64,000 bases of DNA, from assembly GCA_947449835.1 (NCBI GenBank), contig CANFSZ010000008.1:1-64000 (forward strand), given 5' to 3'. The translations under genes and the position numbers were made by a program. Within the stretch, counting starts at the first letter, position 1; each line of letters starts with the position of its first letter. This document shows, piece by piece, positions 10,198 through 60,636 of this stretch. The stretch is from Opitutia bacterium (GTDB lineage: Bacteria; Verrucomicrobiota; Verrucomicrobiia; Opitutales; Opitutaceae). The notes beneath the pieces are model-generated. The model searched no databases. It was not told the DNA's origin and saw nothing but the letters and a program-made list of their open reading frames with translations.

Positions 10198-11631
10198 TTA
10201 GGCGGAAAACTCTTTCGCCAACTCGAGCCCGAAATAGCCGCGGGCGTTGGCGAAACAGATGTTTTTCACCATGCCGCCGACGAGCGCCATGTCGTGGGGG
10301 ATCTCGCCGCGCGCGATGTCGCCGCCGAGGAGATTGCACAACGTGCGCCGGAAATACTCGTGACGCGGATAACTGAGGAAGCTGCGCGAATCCGTGAGCA
10401 TACCGACGAAGCGCGAGAGCAGGCCGAGGTTGGAAAGCGAGTTGAGTTGCCACTCCATCGCTTCCTTCTGGTCGAGAAACCACCAGCCGCTGCCGAATTG
10501 GATTTTTCCGGGAATGGTGCCGTCTTGGAAATTTCCAATCATCGTCGCCATGACGTAATTGTCGGCGGGATTGAGATTGTAGATGACCATGCGCGGGAGC
10601 TGGTCGGTGGCGTCGAGCGCATTTAAGTAGCGCGAGAGCGCGACGGCCTGCGGGAAATCGCCGATGGAATCAAAGCCGGTGTCGGGCCCGAGCTTGGTGA
10701 GGAGGCGGGTGTTATTATTGCGGAGCGCGCCGAGGTGGAGCTGCTTCGTCCAGCCGCGCGCGGCGTCCCAGCGACCGAGCTCAAGCATGAGATACGAGCC
10801 GTAACGCGCAATGTCTTCGGCGGACGGCACGCGACCGGCGCGGGCCGCGTCAAAAACAGCTTGCGCCTGCGCGTGCGTGCACGGTTCGGCGAGCGCCGAT
10901 TCGAGGCCATGATCAGAGACGCGGCCGCCGATGGCGTGAAAATCGTCATGACGTTTTTTCAACGCGCCGAGGAAATCGTCAAACGTGCGCACGCCGTTAG
11001 CTGCGAAGGAACCGCCGGCCGCACCCGCGAGTTTTTCCATGTAAGCGTTGAACACCGCGGGGGCGCCCACGGCGAAGGCCTTGTCGGGCCGAAAGGTCGG
11101 ATACACGCGGGTCTTCAAACCACTGGCGCGGATCTGCTGGTGGAGCTCAAGCGAGTCGGCGGGATCATCGGTCGTGCAGACGACGGCGACGTTGGAGTTG
11201 GTCAGAAAATCGTGCACGCGCATCGTGGCCAACTGCGGATTGGCGCGTTCCCAGATGGAGTCAGCGCTCGCCGGGTTGATGATGTCGGTGATACCGAAAT
11301 AGCGGGCGAGCTCGAGGTGCGACCAATGGTAAAGCGGGTTGCAGAGCGTGTGCGGCATGGTCGCGCACCAAGCGTCGAATTTCTCGCGCGGAGTGGCGTT
11401 GCCGGTGATGAGGCGCTCGGAGACGCCGTTGGTGCGGAGAGCGCGCCATTTATAGTGATCGCCCCCGAGCCAGATCTCGGCGAGGTCGGCGAAGCGGTGG
11501 TTGTTGGCGATCTGCGCGGGCGGCAAATGGCAGTGGTAATCGTAGATCGGTTCGTTTTTCGCGAACGTGTGGTAAAGCTCGCGAGCAGCTGGGGTGGAAA
11601 GCAGGAAGTCGTCGTGGATGAATGCGGCCAT
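10198..11631 (-). CDS. uxaC: Glucuronate isomerase
   Basis: FIHDDFLLSTPAARELYHTFAKNEPIYDYHCHLPPAQIANNHRFADLAEIWLGGDHYKWRALRTNG. Confidence 0.95.
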   Translation of the reverse strand: MAAFIHDDFLLSTPAARELYHTFAKNEPIYDYHCHLPPAQIANNHRFADLAEIWLGGDHYKWRALRTNGVSERLITGNATPREKFDAWCATMPHTLCNPLYHWSHLELARYFGITDIINPASADSIWERANPQLATMRVHDFLTNSNVAVVCTTDDPADSLELHQQIRASGLKTRVYPTFRPDKAFAVGAPAVFNAYMEKLAGAAGGSFAANGVRTFDDFLGALKKRHDDFHAIGGRVSDHGLESALAEPCTHAQAQAVFDAARAGRVPSAEDIARYGSYLMLELGRWDAARGWTKQLHLGALRNNNTRLLTKLGPDTGFDSIGDFPQAVALSRYLNALDATDQLPRMVIYNLNPADNYVMATMIGNFQDGTIPGKIQFGSGWWFLDQKEAMEWQLNSLSNLGLLSRFVGMLTDSRSFLSYPRHEYFRRTLCNLLGGDIARGEIPHDMALVGGMVKNICFANARGYFGLELAKEFSA

Positions 11632-11675
11632 GGGGGAATCTAAGAGTTGTGGTTCAGGGACGTTCGCGGGGCGAC

Positions 11676-13541
11676 TCAGGCTTTGGCAATATCGTTAAGC
11701 ATCGCGGCGAGGTCGGTATAGCCAGCGAGACGCGTTTCGGCGGCGGTGCACGTCGCAGCGGAGGCGAGGCCGGTGTTGCGCGCGAGGAACAGGATGTAAG
11801 CGGCGATATTTTTCGCGAAGTTGAGGCGACCCTCGTCGCTGATCGTGTAAAAGCGGGCGCGTTGGCGGTAACCGGCGGGCGTGTGATCGCCGAGTGCGGC
11901 TTTCTCGGCGCGACCGTCGGCGGCGAGCACGTGGAGGAAATTATATTCAAACCAGAACATATGTTCCGGGCTCGGCGTGAGCGCTTCAAGCGCGGTGCGC
12001 GTAGCGGCTGGGCTGGCGAAGACGTCGGTGCCGTGGCCGGATTTCGCGAGGGCGTCGGTGATGAAAACGCGGGCCATTTTCTGCTCGGTAGCGTCGGTGC
12101 TGTAAGCGCCGAGCAGCGCGAGCTCGAGGGTGAAGCGGTACCAATCGCCCCACAGCGCTTGGTCGGCGGAGTTTTTTGAAGCGAAAAGTCCGCGGCCCAT
12201 TTCGTAGGTGTAGCGGCCGCTGGTTTTGATCTCGAGTCGGCCGCCGGTGACGGCGCCCATGACTTGATAATTTTCGGCGGATTTGCCGGAGCCTGAGTGA
12301 AAACCGATGCTCGCGCCAAAGTTCGCGCAGACGGCCCATTGTTTTTCAATGAGCGTGCGGAGCGCGGCGTTATCTGGGTAAGGCATGTTTTTCTGAAAAC
12401 CAAACGCCGGAGCAACGAAGTGGATTTTCATCCCGAGGGCTTCGCAGAGCGCGAGCATGATGGCGGTCGTCTCGGGCGTGGTGAGGCCGGGCAATTCATC
12501 GATCGAGAGTTCGCGCAGATACGCGCGGCCGACCTCGGTCGTGAAGGCTCGCGCGCGGGCCGCGGTGTATTTGCCGTCGCGGACTTTCATTTTTTGCAGC
12601 GACGGCCAGACGTAGGCGAGGAGCTTGGCGAAATCGGTTTCGTTGAGCGTGAGGCCGGCTTGGGCGACGCGAGCTTTGACCGTAGCGATGAGCGCGGCGG
12701 GGACGTGCGCGGCGCACCACGCGGCGGCATCGTCGGCGACCTTCGTCTGAGCGAGCTCGGGCGAGAGATCGAACGTGATGTAGCTGGCCAGCACGCAGCC
12801 TGTGACGAGGGCGTCTTCGCGACTGTCGAATTTACCGCCGATGGGCTGGTGATCGGCGTTGAACGACCAGGCGATGCCGCGCGTGTGGAAACCGGTTTTG
12901 AGTTTTGAAAGCACGCAGCCGTGGCTCATGCCTTCGACGCTTTGGCCTTGGTGGCCTTCGGGGACGTTGGTGCCGATGAAGGGAAACGGCACGGTGTCGA
13001 GTTTACCGGCGAGCATTACGTCGGTGTCGTAAACGAGTTCGCGCGGAATAGAGTTTTGGTTGGCGGTGACGCCGATGCCGAGTTGCGCCATCGCCCACTC
13101 CACCGCGGGCCAATGCAACGTCGTGAAACGCGCACCGATGCCGAGCGTGCTGCGGCCGAGTTGCTCCGTGGCGCTGGGGAAAATCGTGGACTGCGGGTTG
13201 TGCGCTTGGATCAGGTTTTTCAACCGGAGGAGATTGGCGAAGGTCGCCGGGAATATGGCCGCGGCGTCGGCGAGAGCCACACCGTCGGCGAGGGTGGTAA
13301 CCGCGGCCGCGCCCGTGCGGGCATCGAGGCGCCACGCGCAATCGCCCGTCGCCGCATCTTCGAGCAACACCCAGTTGCCGGCGGCCGTTTCAAAGCGGCT
13401 GTGCAGCCACGCATGGATCGGCTGCGCGTTTTGGATCGCGCTCCTCAACGCTGGCCAGTCCAGACAGAAATCGGGCGACACGCACGGGTTGGTGGCGATG
13501 CGCAGATTATTTTGCAGGAGGAAAGTGTTGATGGCGGACAT
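11676..13541 (-). CDS. uxaE: Tagaturonate/fructuronate epimerase-like protein (UxaE family)
   Basis: ANFGASIGFHSGSGKSAENYQVMG, overall UxaE-like; adjacent to uxaC in the same orientation. Confidence 0.6.
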   Translation of the reverse strand: MSAINTFLLQNNLRIATNPCVSPDFCLDWPALRSAIQNAQPIHAWLHSRFETAAGNWVLLEDAATGDCAWRLDARTGAAAVTTLADGVALADAAAIFPATFANLLRLKNLIQAHNPQSTIFPSATEQLGRSTLGIGARFTTLHWPAVEWAMAQLGIGVTANQNSIPRELVYDTDVMLAGKLDTVPFPFIGTNVPEGHQGQSVEGMSHGCVLSKLKTGFHTRGIAWSFNADHQPIGGKFDSREDALVTGCVLASYITFDLSPELAQTKVADDAAAWCAAHVPAALIATVKARVAQAGLTLNETDFAKLLAYVWPSLQKMKVRDGKYTAARARAFTTEVGRAYLRELSIDELPGLTTPETTAIMLALCEALGMKIHFVAPAFGFQKNMPYPDNAALRTLIEKQWAVCANFGASIGFHSGSGKSAENYQVMGAVTGGRLEIKTSGRYTYEMGRGLFASKNSADQALWGDWYRFTLELALLGAYSTDATEQKMARVFITDALAKSGHGTDVFASPAATRTALEALTPSPEHMFWFEYNFLHVLAADGRAEKAALGDHTPAGYRQRARFYTISDEGRLNFAKNIAAYILFLARNTGLASAATCTAAETRLAGYTDLAAMLNDIAKA

Positions 13542-16605: not shown

Positions 16606-16671
16606 TCATTAGATAAGATACGCGTAAAATTCAGGGGAGCCTTTTGAGGCGATCGGGAGTCAGATGGGGTG

Positions 16672-17058
16672 ATGAAAAACCAAAAAATTCTCCCCACCCC
16701 CGAAATCCTGGCCGCCAAAGTTATCGTTCGCGGCATCCACCTTGACCTCACCCCTGCGCTCCGCACGTACGCGGAGGGCGTCGCCGAGCGCCTCCTCCGC
16801 CACAACGAGCACCTCATCCGCGTCCGCCTCGACATCGAGCTCGATCACACGCGCGCCGTCGGCGACCAATTCATCGCCAAGGGCCACTTAGAAATCCGCG
16901 GCCCCGATCTGATCGCCAGTGTCGAAAGCGACGATGCTTACAAATCCCTGGATCTACTCGCCGACAAACTCGACGGCAGCCTACGCCGCCTCCACGGGAA
17001 ACACAAAAGCCACCGCCACGACGGCGCCATTGAGCCCGTCGAAGGCGTCGTGCTTTAA
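16672..17058 (+). CDS. hpf: Ribosome hibernation promoting factor / sigma-54 modulation protein family
   Basis: VIVRGIHLDLTPALRTYAEGVAERLLRHNEHLIRVRLDIE...DDAYKSLDLLADKLDGSLRRLHGK. Confidence 0.8.
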   Translation: MKNQKILPTPEILAAKVIVRGIHLDLTPALRTYAEGVAERLLRHNEHLIRVRLDIELDHTRAVGDQFIAKGHLEIRGPDLIASVESDDAYKSLDLLADKLDGSLRRLHGKHKSHRHDGAIEPVEGVVL

Positions 17059-17101
17059 ACCGCGCGCCACGCGCGCCCGCCGACGCGCCGAGAGCTAGGG
17101 C

Positions 17102-17845
17102 TCAACGATAGGGCTGGTGCAATTCCACCGGCTTGCTCTTGGCGCGTAGGCGCAAGTTCAGCATCTCCACCCCGAAGGCGAAGGACATGGAGAAATAAAT
17201 ATAGCCTTTCGGAATGTGCTGGCCGAGCGCCTCGCCCACCAGCGTCACGCCAATCAGAATCAGGAAGCTCAAAGCCAACATTTTCAAGGTCGGATGCCGG
17301 TTCACGAAATCACTGATCGCTCCCGCAAACGCCAACATCACGCCGAGTGCTAAGACTACCGCCGTGATCATGATCCACAGCTGGCTGACCATCCCGACCG
17401 CCGTGATCACCGAATCGAGCGAGAATACCACATCGAGCATTAAAATTTGCAAAATCGCTCCGCGAAACGAGGCGACTTTGCCGCCCGCCGTCGAATGTCC
17501 GTCCACGCCTTCGAGTTTCTCGTGCACCTCGACCACGCTTTTGCCGATCAGGAAAAGCCCGCCGAGCAGCAAGATCAGGCTCTTGCCCGTGATCCCGACC
17601 TCAAGGATCGGCAGCACAAACAACACCTTCGTCAGGCTCATCAGCCACGAAATACTAAACAGCAGCAAAATGCGCGTCACCAGCGCCAGCATGAGCCCGA
17701 GCTGACGCGCCTTGGCCTGCTGCTCCTTAGGTAACTTGCCCGCGAGGATCGAAATAAAGATCACGTTATCGATACCAAGCACGATTTCCAAGCCGGTGAG
17801 CGTGAGCAGCGAAATCCAAACCTGCGTATCGGTAAGCAATTCCAT
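17102..17845 (-). CDS. TerC family integral membrane protein
   Basis: GLEIVLGIDNVIFISILAGKLP..., MLDVVFSLDSVITAVGM. Confidence 0.9.
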   Translation of the reverse strand: MELLTDTQVWISLLTLTGLEIVLGIDNVIFISILAGKLPKEQQAKARQLGLMLALVTRILLLFSISWLMSLTKVLFVLPILEVGITGKSLILLLGGLFLIGKSVVEVHEKLEGVDGHSTAGGKVASFRGAILQILMLDVVFSLDSVITAVGMVSQLWIMITAVVLALGVMLAFAGAISDFVNRHPTLKMLALSFLILIGVTLVGEALGQHIPKGYIYFSMSFAFGVEMLNLRLRAKSKPVELHQPYR

Positions 17846-17923
17846 AATAGCGCGATTTCAGTACACCCGCCCCAATTCGGTCAATCCGACTTGGTCAAAA
17901 TCGGCCCACGGCGCCGAAAAATT

Positions 17924-52790: not shown

Positions 52791-55208
52791 TCAAGGCGAG
52801 GCATTCCCCGTCAGAACCTTCATAATCTGGCCGGTGAAAACCTCACTCATGGATGCTTGAACCGCATTATGTCCAATAAAAATCTGCGTGGCGTTCGCTG
52901 GATAAAACTCTTGGTCACTTTCCAAAAGTGTACGCCCATCTAGTTTCACCCATAATTTTTTTCGGCCCATGACCCCAGAAGAACCTAGAACTGTCGGGAA
53001 ATTCAAAGAATCCATGTGCACCTCAATCTCATGATCGCGCATGTCGTCGGGCACGAATGACGGCGACACGGGGCCGCCATAGCCCCAGTGATCAAGCCCA
53101 AGCACGGCGCTCTTCTCGTCTAAATACCGCACAAAAAGCGCGTCGGCGCGGCCGGCCTCACCGGTCTGGATCAACGGCTCGATCGTACCCGGAGCGCGCG
53201 GGGGCCCGAAACGCAGCCGCAAAATTACCCCGCCCTCGCCTTTAGGGATTTGGTGGTGCGTCGGCTGATCAAGGGTGCGACGTGCGAGTATTTGACCAGA
53301 AAACCGAGCCCCAAAATTTGTTATCCCCGGCGTCTCACCGATGTAGCGCGTAGCGGGTGACGCATCATAAGTTTTTTGCTGTTTAGCGATAATTTCCTGC
53401 CCATCCCACTCCACCTTTACCTGCTGCCGCAGGAATACATCCGCGACAGACCGTAGCTGCTCATACCGAGGATGTGTAACTGGAGGAAACAGGGAACCCA
53501 TCGAGATCACGACCGTATGCTCCTGACTATAATCTACCGGGATCGCCGCCGACACCGGACCGCCACGACCTGTGTGCTCCATTCCGATCACGATATGCCC
53601 CTCATCTCTGTAATGAATCCAGATATAATCTGCGTTTGCGCCATATCCCGTCATCAGCAACGGCTCCGTCCGAGCTTGGGTGAATTGCGGTAATTTCAAC
53701 CTCAACTCCAACGGTCCATCGCGCCGTCCTCTAAAATCCTCCCACCAAGCCACCGGTACATTAAAAAAACAGGCCAACCTCCGATAGCCCGCCTCATCGC
53801 GCAGCTGCAATAAATTGAGGTGCTCGCAACTAGCGAAAAAATTTACCGCTGCCGAAAATAATAATGCCCCCCACCAAACCGACCGAACCGGCCAACGCCA
53901 CCACGCCGTCCACCCTGCGAACCCATACTCCAAAATCAAAATACCCCATCCCGCCAACAAGATCCAAGCGGGCAAAAAATCCACAAAATACCGATTCGTC
54001 GCGCCACCGAAAAAACACACGGTCAGCCCGCATATTACCGCGACCAACCCCACCGCCCATAACCATGCGCGCCCGTTCGGGCGAGCTGTGTCACCCCGCA
54101 AGGCGACCAAGCAAGCCAACGCACACCAGACCACCGGCAGATTCGTCAACAAACCAAACACACTCTCAACCCCGAGTTGTCCCGCTGGTGCCGGCGGCAC
54201 CCGAATCCCGATAAAAAAAGGAAAATACCAACTCCACTGCCCTGGCTCCCACAGGTAGAGCCGGACATGATACCAAAAATAACCGACCCCGAAAAACGTC
54301 TGCTTCGTATTATCAACCCCCGCCAGTTGGTATTTTTGGCCGAATTCCAAAACGCTTCCGAAGCGCACCCAATTATAAAACATCAGCGCGAACCCGATCA
54401 TTGTGATCGGCGCCACCACCGCCACCAGCAAGCGCGCGGCCTCGCGCCGCCCAGCCCCAAACCGCCGCCACTGCACCCCTACAGGCACCAACAACATCGC
54501 CGCACCCAACAACACCGGTGGCCGCGCCGCCACCGCCAGACCATAAGCTAGACTCGCTAACACCGCCCAACCCACTCGCCTGCGACTCGCATGCAACACC
54601 TGCCACACCGCCGCCAGCGCCAACATCACAAAAAATGACGCACATGCGATCGGAACCTCCCACACATCTGGGCGGCGCAACATGATCGGCATCGCGTTCG
54701 CCAGTCCGAGTCCCGCCACTAAAGCCCCCAGGACCACAACCCCCATTTGGGGAAAATACCGCCGCCGTGCCGCCGCCAACAAAACAACCGTCACCAAAAA
54801 ACTTCCGGCACAAAAAATCGCCACGGTCTCACTATGCCACAAATATTCCCCGCTTAGAATTTTGTAGGGCAACAGCAACACCAGCGCCGGCGTTGCCCCA
54901 AAGTAGATGTAGTATCGCCCTTGGAAATACGTCGCATCATGCAACCGATAGGAATGGTTCTGCGCGGGGTCGTACGGATTAGCCAAGCGAGCCATTTCCA
55001 CCGGCGGCTCTTTTTTCAAATAAAGATGCCCATCGCAAAACCCATCGACCAACAGGTTGTAGTAAGCCTCACGCGCAGTGGGATTACCCAACTGCGAGAC
55101 TGCCGGCCTCGCGATCCAGAAATAAACCCAGACCACGATAGCACTCGCCGCGCAGAGCACCGCTCGACTCAACCAATTATACCACGCAGGAAACGACAAC
55201 GACATCAA
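52791..55208 (-). CDS. Multi-TM protein, glycosyltransferase-39/PMT-like, with duplicated C-terminal soluble domain
   Basis: N-terminal ~480 aa multi-TM with conserved polar loops; C-terminal ~300 aa contains two homologous repeats (see findings). Confidence 0.7.
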   Translation of the reverse strand: MMSLSFPAWYNWLSRAVLCAASAIVVWVYFWIARPAVSQLGNPTAREAYYNLLVDGFCDGHLYLKKEPPVEMARLANPYDPAQNHSYRLHDATYFQGRYYIYFGATPALVLLLPYKILSGEYLWHSETVAIFCAGSFLVTVVLLAAARRRYFPQMGVVVLGALVAGLGLANAMPIMLRRPDVWEVPIACASFFVMLALAAVWQVLHASRRRVGWAVLASLAYGLAVAARPPVLLGAAMLLVPVGVQWRRFGAGRREAARLLVAVVAPITMIGFALMFYNWVRFGSVLEFGQKYQLAGVDNTKQTFFGVGYFWYHVRLYLWEPGQWSWYFPFFIGIRVPPAPAGQLGVESVFGLLTNLPVVWCALACLVALRGDTARPNGRAWLWAVGLVAVICGLTVCFFGGATNRYFVDFLPAWILLAGWGILILEYGFAGWTAWWRWPVRSVWWGALLFSAAVNFFASCEHLNLLQLRDEAGYRRLACFFNVPVAWWEDFRGRRDGPLELRLKLPQFTQARTEPLLMTGYGANADYIWIHYRDEGHIVIGMEHTGRGGPVSAAIPVDYSQEHTVVISMGSLFPPVTHPRYEQLRSVADVFLRQQVKVEWDGQEIIAKQQKTYDASPATRYIGETPGITNFGARFSGQILARRTLDQPTHHQIPKGEGGVILRLRFGPPRAPGTIEPLIQTGEAGRADALFVRYLDEKSAVLGLDHWGYGGPVSPSFVPDDMRDHEIEVHMDSLNFPTVLGSSGVMGRKKLWVKLDGRTLLESDQEFYPANATQIFIGHNAVQASMSEVFTGQIMKVLTGNASP

Positions 55209-55869: not shown

Positions 55870-58209
55870 CTATTTAATTTTTGCACCCCAACGATTCGCC
55901 TCGGCCGGCGCCAATGGTAGCGGCTCGACCAGCCAAGCGGCTGGTTTTTCACCGCTGTATATAACCGCTTCTTCGCCTTTTTTCAGATCGAGTTCGATCA
56001 GTCCGTCGTGCTGGCGCAGATTCGCAGTCGTGGTGCCTTCGATCCGGAGCGTTCCAGGGAACGTCGCCTGAATCCGGCAAGGTTCGCCAGCGAGACTCTT
56101 GACATGGATAAACCGAGTCACGCCAGCCTCGCGCACGGAGCTGACCAAAAACGCTCCTTCAACGCGCAGACCAAAAAACCGCGCATCCGACCAACTAGAC
56201 GGCATCGCCGGAAACACGCGGATTACGCCCGAGCCGTCTTGCACCATGAGATCGAGGACGTTGCGCGCGGCGGAAATCGGCGACTCAAACGTCGGCCAGC
56301 CGTTTTCGCTGTAAAGCGTGTTGGCGCCGACGGTGGGCACCGGTTTTTTTTGCGGCGGCATAATGAGCAGCGCGCGTTGAATCCAGCGCAATGCTTGATC
56401 GCCATCGCCCGCGCTCGACCAGAGCGACGAAGCGCCGGTGTATTTGAACATGCAGTTGTCGCCTTCGAGATCCGTGAAACGCCGGATCGACTGCGCCGCC
56501 AGCGGCGCCAGCGCGGGCTGCGCAACCGGATCGATCAAACGCAGCGGCCAGAGCGCGAAGAGGTGACTAAAATGGCGATGCGATTTATTAAACGGCACGT
56601 CTTTGCCGATCATGATACCCGTCGCGGGATCGATGGGGTAATCGGCCATTTTGGCGAGGCGTTCACGCCATTGCGGCAGGAGCGGATCGTCGATGTTGAG
56701 GCGCTGCGCACAGGCGATGAGAGTTTTGAAACCCCAAGTAGCGAGCGCGAGGTTGAGGCTGGTGTCCTGCGCGTTGCCGTACTCGTCCGAATACGTGAGC
56801 GGAATGTGATAACGCCCGTCTTCGCAGAGATGCAGAATGCGCAGATAAACGTTAAACGTCCGGCGCATGAGCGGATAAATACTCTCGCGCAACCGCGCCT
56901 CATCCATCGTGCGCTGACTGTACGTGTAGAACTGCTGCATGAGCCACGGCAACACGATGAGGTTCATCGGCTGCGTGCTCTTCGGATCATCGGTCAAAAA
57001 CACCCCGGCCTCCAACTCATCCCAACCCACGGGATTCGCCACCGCTGAACAGTCGGCGCGAAAATTTTCCGGCACATTGGCGCTGAGTTGCGCGCGGTGT
57101 TTTTCGATCAGGCGATAAAGCGGGTCTTCGAGATCCAAGTGGTTCGTCAGGCCCAACGTCGAATACGTGAGCTGCACATTAAGATTCATCCAGAGCGCCG
57201 CCCAGATCGAGGGTTTGAACCACGGTCCCATCAGATCGATGACCGGTCCTTCAGCCCGCGTCGCGCTGGCGAGTTTGTAGAGTTGGATCCAATAAAAACT
57301 TTCCAGCCGGGCCTCGGGCACCGACACAAAACTCACCGGATAAAACGCGTGCCACCAACGGCGATGCGCCTGCTCCATCTCCACTACGGACCGCCGCTCG
57401 TAAGTCTTGAGTTGCTTCACGGCATCCGCCGTAGAGCCCAACGGCGTGGCTGGATTTGATCCAAAACGATTCGCCACCGTGACCAACACCGTGCGCTCAT
57501 CGGCCGCCGTCGGCGTCTCGCTCCATGCCGTAGCGTAATCGCTGCCGGCGAGCAACGTCTGCGTGGTGACGCTCACGCCGTCCACGGCCTCGGTTTTGAA
57601 GGGCGGATTCGGCACAAAGATAAAGCCTTTGTCGCGCGTGGGTCGCAGCATGTAACGCTGGCTGTCGCCTTGTTGCGGACGAAACGTGCAAGCGGCGGCG
57701 CGTTCATTACCCGTGGTTTTTAGGTTCATCACGATCACCTCTTCGCCCTTGGGCACGAAGCAGCGCAACGCGATCGCCCCTTCCGTCGTATGTAAGGTGC
57801 CGGTGATTTCGGCGTTCCAGAGATCCGTGCGCAGTTCGGTTTTCGTGATCGTGCCACGCGGGGTGAGCAAAAGTTGTCCGATGGGTAGTCGAATTTTCGC
57901 GTGTCCTAGACGCGTGCCGTCAGTGCGGTGATCGTAGACGTCGCTGCGCCCGATCTCGAAACGTAGGGTGTTAGGCTGTTGATCGTCTTTGAACACCATC
58001 GCGCCGAAAAGTCCGTTACCAACAAATGCGCCTTCAAAGTAATCTTCCGGCAGCCGCTCCCAAACAAGATCGTGTTGCCCGAGATATCTTGGCCAATCCA
58101 CCTGCAGGCTTACCTGCGGATTCGTGGCGCCCGCGAGCGTCCACAATGCGGCAAACCAAAACAGACCGAAACGCACGAGCAGGGGCGCGGGAAAATAAAA
58201 ATGACGCAT
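55870..58209 (-). CDS. Secreted glycoside hydrolase family 95-like (alpha-L-fucosidase/galactosidase superfamily)
   Basis: DLVWERLPEDYFEGAFVGNGLFGAMVF...LPWLMQQFYTYSQRTMDEARLRESIYPLMRRTFNVYL...HRHFSHLFALWPLRLI...GDGDQALRWIQRAL. Confidence 0.75.
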   Translation of the reverse strand: MRHFYFPAPLLVRFGLFWFAALWTLAGATNPQVSLQVDWPRYLGQHDLVWERLPEDYFEGAFVGNGLFGAMVFKDDQQPNTLRFEIGRSDVYDHRTDGTRLGHAKIRLPIGQLLLTPRGTITKTELRTDLWNAEITGTLHTTEGAIALRCFVPKGEEVIVMNLKTTGNERAAACTFRPQQGDSQRYMLRPTRDKGFIFVPNPPFKTEAVDGVSVTTQTLLAGSDYATAWSETPTAADERTVLVTVANRFGSNPATPLGSTADAVKQLKTYERRSVVEMEQAHRRWWHAFYPVSFVSVPEARLESFYWIQLYKLASATRAEGPVIDLMGPWFKPSIWAALWMNLNVQLTYSTLGLTNHLDLEDPLYRLIEKHRAQLSANVPENFRADCSAVANPVGWDELEAGVFLTDDPKSTQPMNLIVLPWLMQQFYTYSQRTMDEARLRESIYPLMRRTFNVYLRILHLCEDGRYHIPLTYSDEYGNAQDTSLNLALATWGFKTLIACAQRLNIDDPLLPQWRERLAKMADYPIDPATGIMIGKDVPFNKSHRHFSHLFALWPLRLIDPVAQPALAPLAAQSIRRFTDLEGDNCMFKYTGASSLWSSAGDGDQALRWIQRALLIMPPQKKPVPTVGANTLYSENGWPTFESPISAARNVLDLMVQDGSGVIRVFPAMPSSWSDARFFGLRVEGAFLVSSVREAGVTRFIHVKSLAGEPCRIQATFPGTLRIEGTTTANLRQHDGLIELDLKKGEEAVIYSGEKPAAWLVEPLPLAPAEANRWGAKIK

Positions 58210-58356
58210 CGCATCTTGATGCGGATTAAACTGCTGCGCAGCAAGCCGGCGGCACGCCGTTTTAAAAACCAAACGGACATGAATGCTCGTAAGCTGAGAC
58301 AACGCCTACGCCATACAGGTGAAGCCCTCGTCGATTAGCGGCAAGACCGCGGCGGC

Positions 58357-60636
58357 TCAGTCCACGAAGATTTCACAGATCGACCAAGGCGTTTCTTTGC
58401 GCGAGGCTACGTTTTTGATGATTACATAACGGCCGCGAGCTCCAGCAGGCAAATCGATCACGGTCTTGTTGGTTTGGCCAACACCGCTTGCAACGACTTT
58501 ACCGGGTGAAGCGACATCATCAGTGACGTACACTTCGTAGCTTTCGGGAAACTCCGCGCCGCGCCCCGTCTGGTCGAGCGTGATCCGACGCAACGGCCGC
58601 GAGAGCCTGAAATCGATTTCCACCCATTCGTCACCTTCGGCCGGTACGGTCCAGCGATTGCCCGTGTTTCCATCCATGAGGTTTTTTAAATCCGCCATCG
58701 TCGAGGCCCGCAGCTTGGCCGGACCTGCCTGATTAGCGCGAATCACCGCGGCACTTTCAGCGGCCGCGGCTCCTACCTCGATATCAGATTGCACGTTCTC
58801 GACGAGCGCCAAGGCCGGCGCATCCGCCGCCCGCTTCAACAAAGCAATCAAAGCCAACCGCGATTCCGCGGCTGCGCTGACCGCCAGCAGTCGCGCAACG
58901 AGCGCGGTGGCGTCGGCGCTCCAAGGAGCCCGATTGCGCTCGAAGGCGGCGATCACGCCGGTGACTGCGCTCGCGCGCACGGTGGGCAGAGTCGTGCGCT
59001 CGGCGACGCTCACAAGCGCGGGGATCGCGGTGTCATCGGTCCAGCGTACGAGCGCGCTCGTCGCAGCCTCGGCTAATTTAAAATCTGCACTCAACGCCAG
59101 TTTGCCCGCGGACACCGCACTCGGCGCGCCGCCGATGCGACCAAGCGCGGGGAGCAGACGCAGCGCAAGTTCCGCCGCCGCCGTTTCCAGCGCGGCGTAA
59201 AGGGTAGCGCCGCGGCTGGCGACATCGGGGTTACGCAACGTGATGCTCACTAGCGCGCGCAAGGCGCGGGCTTGCTCATTCGTATCCGTCGCGACGATAG
59301 CCCAATCAAGGACGATTTTATTGTCCGCTGGCGGAGCAAGTTCTCCGAGCGCGGTGACGGCGGCCGCACGTATGGCCGAATCAGGATCGGTCCGAAGTTT
59401 AACCAGAAGCGGCAAGCCTTCGCTAAGACCGCGCAGCGCGATTTGCTCGATCAAGACGACGCGCAAAGCGGTTTCCCCGCGCTCGGCGCCGGTGAGAATG
59501 GCGGCGTTCAACGCGGGGCCGTTAAGGCGCGCGAGGCTGGCCTTGGCGGTTTTGCTTTCGGCGGCCGCGGTGCCTGCTGCGATGTGGGTGAGGGCGGTCA
59601 TAGTCTCGATCGTGCCGGGTAAAAATCCCAAGGCTTCGATCGCCGTCGTGCGCACCTTGGCGTCTTCGTGCGCACTCGCTTTAAGCACGGCGGACGTGCC
59701 CGCTGCGTCGCCGCGACGCGCCATAGCCGCGATCACCGCGGATTGCGTGAACTCATCCCAACTAGAAAGTTTAGCCGCGAGCGACGGAATGATTTGGGGA
59801 GCGCGCGAAGAATAGATGGATTCGAGGACGACGTGTTTCGCAGCCGCGTCGTTGCCGTCGAGCACGTCCAACGTGGTGGCGATTGAAGGATCTAGTTGAA
59901 GCAGAAGCCGGAGCGCCGCGATGCGATGCACGGGATCCGCGGCGCGCGCACGTAAATCCGCCAACACCGCCAACGCACTGCCAGCGGCGAGACGCGGCGC
60001 GAGGGCGAGTTTGGCTGCCGCGACCGCGGCGGGGCTGGGCTCAGGCACAGCCTGCAAGACGACCGCCGCGCTATGATCGGTGATGAGCCCCAGGGCGCGC
60101 GCAGCCGCCGCGGACGTCGACGGATCGTTGTCGCCGAGTAATTTCGCGAGCGCGGGTACAGCGGCAACGATTTGCCGGCGAGCAATCGAATCGATCAGCG
60201 CGATTCGCGTACGCGCCGTGGTCTGGTTGAGGGCCGCAAGAAAAAGCGTGTCGATCACAGCACCGGGCGCGGGTTCGAGCGCGAGTCGGGCAAGATCGGA
60301 GTCGCGTTCGTCGGCGAGCATCGCGGGAAGCGGTTTGAGCCCCGCCGTGGTGAGTTTTTCCGGCGCAAGGCCGAGAACCCAACCGAGGCGTTGGCAGAGG
60401 ACTTGGCGTGCGGCGTAGGTCGTATCACTTACACGCAGACCGGCGAGGAGACGTTGCTCGACCGCCGCGAGCTTCACGGGGTCCGTGCCAGCGGCGTAAA
60501 GTTCACGGTCGAGCGCTTCGACGGCCTGCGGGCTGCCGGAGTAATCGAGCTGGGAAAGCGTAGGCTCAGCCGCGACGGACGAATGAGCAATCATCGCGAA
60601 AACGAAACCAGCGGTGAAAAAAGTGGGGCGCAACAT
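58357..60636 (-). CDS. Secreted HEAT-repeat protein with C-terminal discoidin/F5-8C-like domain
   Basis: HEAT-type alpha repeats (IPALVSVAERTTLPTVRASAVTGVIAAF); C-term LMDGNTGNRWTVPAEGDEWVEIDFRLSRPLRRITLDQ. Confidence 0.75.
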   Translation of the reverse strand: MLRPTFFTAGFVFAMIAHSSVAAEPTLSQLDYSGSPQAVEALDRELYAAGTDPVKLAAVEQRLLAGLRVSDTTYAARQVLCQRLGWVLGLAPEKLTTAGLKPLPAMLADERDSDLARLALEPAPGAVIDTLFLAALNQTTARTRIALIDSIARRQIVAAVPALAKLLGDNDPSTSAAAARALGLITDHSAAVVLQAVPEPSPAAVAAAKLALAPRLAAGSALAVLADLRARAADPVHRIAALRLLLQLDPSIATTLDVLDGNDAAAKHVVLESIYSSRAPQIIPSLAAKLSSWDEFTQSAVIAAMARRGDAAGTSAVLKASAHEDAKVRTTAIEALGFLPGTIETMTALTHIAAGTAAAESKTAKASLARLNGPALNAAILTGAERGETALRVVLIEQIALRGLSEGLPLLVKLRTDPDSAIRAAAVTALGELAPPADNKIVLDWAIVATDTNEQARALRALVSITLRNPDVASRGATLYAALETAAAELALRLLPALGRIGGAPSAVSAGKLALSADFKLAEAATSALVRWTDDTAIPALVSVAERTTLPTVRASAVTGVIAAFERNRAPWSADATALVARLLAVSAAAESRLALIALLKRAADAPALALVENVQSDIEVGAAAAESAAVIRANQAGPAKLRASTMADLKNLMDGNTGNRWTVPAEGDEWVEIDFRLSRPLRRITLDQTGRGAEFPESYEVYVTDDVASPGKVVASGVGQTNKTVIDLPAGARGRYVIIKNVASRKETPWSICEIFVD

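Follow-up and report, generated by a model that had tools for sequence, protein, structure and literature searches.

Tandem laminin-G-like domains on a membrane protein with a GT-C core fold in Opitutaceae

What would a membrane protein that resembles a glycosyltransferase do with two copies of the same C-terminal domain? The question is raised by a gene in the window, the 64,000-nucleotide stretch of an Opitutia bacterium genome analyzed here, whose 805-residue product contains both copies within its final 312 residues (Table 1). The open reading frame begins with TTG, directly followed by an ATG at position 55205. With a GC content of 55.7%, the gene at 52791–55208 is AT-richer than most of the window (61–64%).

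Table 1 Features of the window gene and its product; positions refer to the window
Feature	Position	Strand	Basis
Whole gene, 805 aa: GT-C membrane core and two C-terminal lectin-like domains	52791..55208	(-)	ORF; AlphaFold2
N-terminal membrane core, aa 1-493, GT-C fold, ~11 predicted TM helices	53730..55208	(-)	Foldseek; hydropathy
D91 codon, first extracytoplasmic loop, motif HDATYF, candidate catalytic base	54936..54938	(-)	Conservation
Repeat 1, aa 498-645, laminin-G/galectin-like beta-sandwich, 'first'-type signature (L-[FY]-P-P...H-P)	53274..53717	(-)	
Inter-repeat linker, aa 646-658	53235..53273	(-)	Low pLDDT in AlphaFold2 models
Repeat 2, aa 659-801, laminin-G/galectin-like beta-sandwich, 'last'-type signature (DHWG, GHN)	52806..53234	(-)	
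D706-H707-W708-G709, last-position repeat motif, candidate ligand site	53082..53093	(-)	Conservation among last-position repeats

A duplicated domain and a GT-C membrane core

The initial annotation had claimed an internal duplication at residues 499–798 (positions 53714–52815), within about three residues of the domain edges in the AlphaFold model. The duplication is genuine and its location is confirmed: the two repeats, each of ~145 residues, align over 151 columns with 31% identity and 50% positives (BLASTP E = 4e-21), and their Smith-Waterman score of 181 compares with a mean of 28.6 (s.d. 4.9) and a maximum of 54 in 1000 shuffles. A profile seeded on the two repeats of the window found one to five copies in more than 100 related open reading frames, and the signature first read from the window protein (G..AD..Y..G..H.G.GG..S..SL.P) is kept throughout the repeat family.

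The domain had also been described as apparently new, and this assessment stands. Neither the whole window protein nor its C-terminal part matched any model in Pfam or NCBIfam at E 1. When 37 family repeats were compared with Pfam models, all matches were at chance level, and none of the 37 matched the LamG models (Laminin_G families) at E 0.1. AlphaFold2 predicted the tandem region, from 90 sequences, as almost wholly beta (pLDDT 90.3, pTM 0.83), and the full-length protein, from 83 sequences, with pLDDT 92.3 and pTM 0.91. Foldseek matched the tandem region to laminin LG4-5 (E = 2.4e-9) and galectin-9 (E = 8.9e-8), and also to galectin-8, neurexin, Gas6, SHBG and CBM40, placing the repeats in the beta-sandwich jelly-roll fold of the concanavalin A-like/laminin-G type. 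TM-scores normalized by single-domain targets were 0.42–0.55, and the lower TMq and high rmsd of the two-domain alignments probably reflect differing domain orientations. By sequence, weak matches point in the same direction, namely to agrin LamG (E = 0.0039 with the single-repeat profile, E = 0.0015 with the tandem profile) and to CSPG4 LamG (E = 0.022). The earlier guess of a laminin-G-like beta-sandwich is thus borne out by structure prediction, with agrin LamG turning up in the sequence comparisons too. The repeats share their jelly-roll fold with laminin-G/neurexin LNS, galectin and CBM40 domains, but differ from them in having a signature of their own, no Pfam match and a distribution that we find confined to one bacterial family; the repeat domain is a novel sequence family within an established fold. 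Matches to viral structures were mostly generic LamG/ConA-like ones, and a plasmid search returned none. The top PDB sequence match, the CFA/I fimbrial subunit (E = 6.6e-4), was rejected because none of its stretches passes on its own and the chain fuses three parts.

For the N-terminal core, Foldseek returned the glycosyltransferases AglB (3wak, E = 4.2e-5), ArnT (5f15, E = 6.1e-5) and EmbA-EmbB (7bvf, E = 8.9e-4), all with a probability of 1.00, as well as PglB and ALG3 (probability likewise 1.00) and ALG9, with moderate TM-scores of 0.25–0.50 depending on the target. On a model with pTM 0.91, the core thus has the membrane fold of the GT-C superfamily, which upholds the GT39-like core proposed by the initial annotation as an ArnT/PMT-like GT-C core. 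Its membrane fold is common to ArnT/PMT-type transferases, from which the window protein differs by its C-terminal lectin-like domains and by matching neither of the PMT Pfam models (PF02366, PF13231); one relative shows a sub-threshold PMT match (20.6 bits against a cutoff of 22.7, E = 3.6e-4). A profile from the full-length alignment retrieved no Emb proteins from the PDB chains at E 1. Arabinanase matches to the core cover a stretch of ~30 residues and were judged to be due to chance.

Hydropathy and the positive-inside rule are consistent with 11 transmembrane helices, N-in and C-out, a predicted topology whose count takes segment 101–119 as a juxtamembrane helix and 208–247 as two helices, in line with the AlphaFold helices. 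The first outer loop contains the conserved acid expected of the GT-C superfamily: position 91 is Asp in 82 and Glu in one of 83 homologues, making D91 a candidate catalytic base by analogy. R229, R282, R406 and Y407 are near-invariant in the same set. From the AlphaFold2 models and Foldseek matches, we therefore describe the protein as a GT-C membrane core followed by two laminin-G/lectin-like domains.

Distribution and history of the modules

We searched samples of the window's family, order and phylum with the repeat profile. The domain was found in 69 of 252 genomes of Opitutaceae, the window's own family; in five of 388 genomes sampled throughout the phylum, all of them Opitutaceae; and in 15 Opitutaceae among 373 genomes of the order, together with one marginal partial match in another family (G748, E = 4.5e-4, 53 residues) that was judged to be a chance hit. 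When the core motif was compared with ~85,000 species genomes, the best 80 stretches were Verrucomicrobiota records only. The window genome encodes five such genes, since contig C13 carries four paralogues with two to four repeats each; in the 1104-residue C13 paralogue, the extra copy is a divergent region that the repeat profile does not call.

Complete open reading frames carry one, two, three, four or five repeats in 16, 30, 31, 9 and 1 cases, respectively. In most proteins, the repeats follow the same type of core as in the window protein. They also follow a second, large type of membrane protein without a Pfam match (L117, L058, L064) and an ArnT-like core with a PDE motif, recognized by eye (L122, L064), and a 1959-residue fusion in L054 combines these two types, with repeats. 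The large type comprises ~950 residues without repeats and more with them, and lies in the same clusters (L010:2235-5087; L117:11277-15941; L058:3100-6726). Repeats stand N-terminal to a core in L068, L071, L063, L060 and L097; in three of these (L068:14847-17054, L071:13645-15891, L063:16219-18555), the usual order is reversed, with one repeat between a transmembrane helix and the membrane core. Finally, proteins consisting of repeats only (L053, 416 residues, 16628-17875; L054, 380 residues; L122, 555 residues, 10744-12408; L136, 558 residues), two or three of them in L053, L122 and L136, appear to be secreted, judging by their hydrophobic N-termini. Stops within further family copies (G004:C8:15458-16228, G033:C86:3673-4107) suggest decaying paralogues in tandem clusters.

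Among 204 repeats placed in a tree, the nearest neighbour was position-matched for 57 of 65 first repeats and 56 of 65 last repeats, and lay within the same protein for only two of the 204. A recent tandem duplication inside the window gene was therefore rejected; the copies diverged before the proteins did, and the duplication is ancient because first copies and last copies fall into distinct lineages. Signatures differ by position: first repeats show L-Y-P-P...H-P, last repeats D-H-W-G together with G-x-N-x-x-G. Within the DHWG motif of last-position repeats, D, H, W and G reach frequencies of 0.86, 0.78, 0.89 and 0.83, and first-position repeats have no conserved Trp at the site equivalent to W708, a residue of the last-type repeat that we regard as a candidate carbohydrate site. 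Repeat 2 of the window has the DHWG motif, but carries Q784 where Gly is usual in last repeats. Its closest neighbour in the tree is a middle repeat from L064, and the last repeats of the L052 and L057 orthologues lie further away; its affinity to L064 may reflect domain exchange.

Exchange may also have occurred between module types. A midpoint-rooted tree of 102 cores groups the window protein with its two closest orthologues, and their sister group is a clade of 33 repeat-less proteins (SH-aLRT 96 for the node, 83 for the other branch). All 12 repeat-less proteins scanned, taken from different parts of this clade, carry TPRs after the core. The TPR-bearing core relatives, located in L077, L081, L084, L088, L093, L095, L096, L100, L104, L106, L109 and L125, have an architecture reminiscent of animal TMTC O-mannosyltransferases. 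Although the rooting at the midpoint calls for caution, the simplest reading is that the lectin-like repeats were replaced by TPRs.

Gene neighbourhoods and the possible ligand of the repeats

The paralogue cluster on C13 includes genes for an HddA-like heptose-phosphate kinase, a nucleotidyltransferase, an NAD-dependent epimerase and a Gfo/Idh oxidoreductase, as well as MBOAT and Acyl_transf_3 O-acyltransferases. The substrate of the kinase is uncertain because its match to NF049969 (E = 1.2e-47) is far below the equivalog cutoff. On other membrane proteins and in repeat-only proteins, too, the domain is mostly encoded within sugar-nucleotide clusters. Comparing repeat-bearing with repeat-less loci of at least 9 kb, we found the kinase in 16 of 41 versus 0 of 23 (p = 2.4e-4), the epimerase in equal numbers (16 of 41 versus 0 of 23, p = 2.4e-4) and the oxidoreductase in 21 of 41 versus 0 of 23 (p = 1.1e-5), in Fisher tests that ignore kinship and with repeat-less loci that mostly hold proteins of one clade, several of these coming from the same genome. 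Against a role in glycan assembly, the window's own gene stands apart from the glycan cluster, flanked by genes of metX/metW type, identified by reading only, and by a GH95 hydrolase. Its orthologues in G004 and G010 are located inside paralogue clusters. The adjoining gene on the same strand (55870-58302) encodes this GH95-type glycoside hydrolase, of the alpha-fucosidase family, and 58357-60636 a HEAT-repeat protein ending in an F5/8 type C (galactose-binding-like) domain.

In one C13 paralogue (L009:14940-18164, genome G000), a GtrA/DPMS-type transmembrane domain (PF04138, E = 9.8e-14) is fused to the N-terminus, giving by its sequence a putative flippase and a GT-C enzyme in a single chain. 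In three-component systems, GtrA is proposed to flip undecaprenyl-phosphate-sugar (PMC11127046). The GT-C enzyme of such systems acts in the periplasm, as we propose for the family studied here, but the window gene shows no GtrB or GtrA partner that we could identify; the fusion in this one paralogue gives indirect support to a lipid-phosphate sugar donor.

We therefore favour, with a probability of about 0.6, an inner-membrane GT-C transferase that uses a polyprenyl-phosphate sugar donor and holds its acceptor glycan with periplasmic lectin-like modules. The core would accept a sugar from the polyprenyl-phosphate carrier and add it, at the periplasmic side of the membrane, to an envelope glycan that is being built, and the two laminin-G/lectin-type domains beside the active site would hold or position that acceptor, as in EmbC. 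Computation supports the duplication, a core of GT-C fold, repeats that fold as beta-sandwiches and a link to sugar-nucleotide clusters, as well as a periplasmic C-terminus, to which the topology prediction and the secreted repeat-only relatives both point; that the core is catalytic, that its donor is lipid-linked and that the repeats bind glycan is what we infer. Enzymes of this kind are already known, since GT-C enzymes with lectin-like C-terminal modules have been described. The C-terminal lectin-like module of Mycobacterium tuberculosis EmbC binds the acceptor and is required for activity and chain extension (PMC3044687), and EmbB has periplasmic jelly-roll domains (PMC7305291). Like the window protein, mycobacterial EmbA/B/C combine a GT-C core with subsequent periplasmic beta-sandwich lectin-like modules, and EmbA-EmbB is among the Foldseek matches; unlike them, the window protein carries tandem repeats of a single family, shows no sequence similarity that we could find and comes from different taxa. 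The role suggested by the initial annotation, that the repeats bind the glycan or acceptor, would fit both this precedent and the gene neighbourhoods.

Since proteins, steroids or metals are ligands of laminin-G folds as well, sugar binding does not follow from the fold. The repeats might instead bind protein acceptors or partner subunits, in which case the enzyme would glycosylate proteins or belong to a multi-protein assembly. Many of the closest solved matches (laminin LG4-5, neurexin, Gas6) are protein binders, and the sister clade of the core has TPR arrays, which are protein-binding modules, at the same place. The GT-C O-mannosyltransferases TMTC1-4 have their TPRs in the ER lumen, and match the 11 transmembrane helices, the N-in, C-out topology and the outward-facing C-terminal repeats predicted for the window protein (PMC7801869); they differ in that TMTC1-4 carry TPRs, whereas the window protein carries lectin-like domains and TPRs occur in its sister clade. 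Against protein binding, genes of sugar-nucleotide synthesis accompany the repeat-bearing genes and not the TPR-bearing ones, and the sugar binders galectin and CBM40 are among the best fold matches; we consider it rather unlikely. Still less probable is a mainly structural role without a ligand, with the repeats as spacers or a periplasmic scaffold that stabilizes the enzyme or sets its distance to the peptidoglycan. Such a role would explain the variable copy number, and first copies may indeed only support, because DHWG is conserved mainly in last-position repeats; it sits poorly with position-specific signatures kept among distant proteins and with the domain's presence in secreted proteins that have no membrane core. 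That the core is related to GT-C enzymes but inactive, or does a job other than transfer (for example as a flippase, polymerase or sensor), would agree with its lack of a Pfam family match and of any characterized member that we could find, and is very improbable given the near-invariant D91, R229, R282, R406 and Y407 and best fold matches that are active GT-C enzymes.

Returning to the acceptor-holding transferase, a search that took in few subscription papers yielded no literature on the repeat domain family, the core family or the module exchange, and all three appear undescribed. For a poorly studied group of environmental bacteria, this adds one domain family and one GT-C family that are not yet catalogued. 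More tentatively, and we hold this to be doubtful, Opitutaceae might possess a modular system in which one extracytoplasmic glycosyltransferase core is re-targeted by swapping its C-terminal module, tandem lectin-like domains directing it to glycans and TPRs to proteins, with the lectin module also placed on other membrane proteins and deployed as secreted multi-domain lectins. Closely related cores that bear lectin-like domains in one case and TPRs in the other provide a natural test of what makes a GT-C enzyme select a glycan or a protein as its acceptor, a question also posed by EmbC-like and TMTC-like enzymes.
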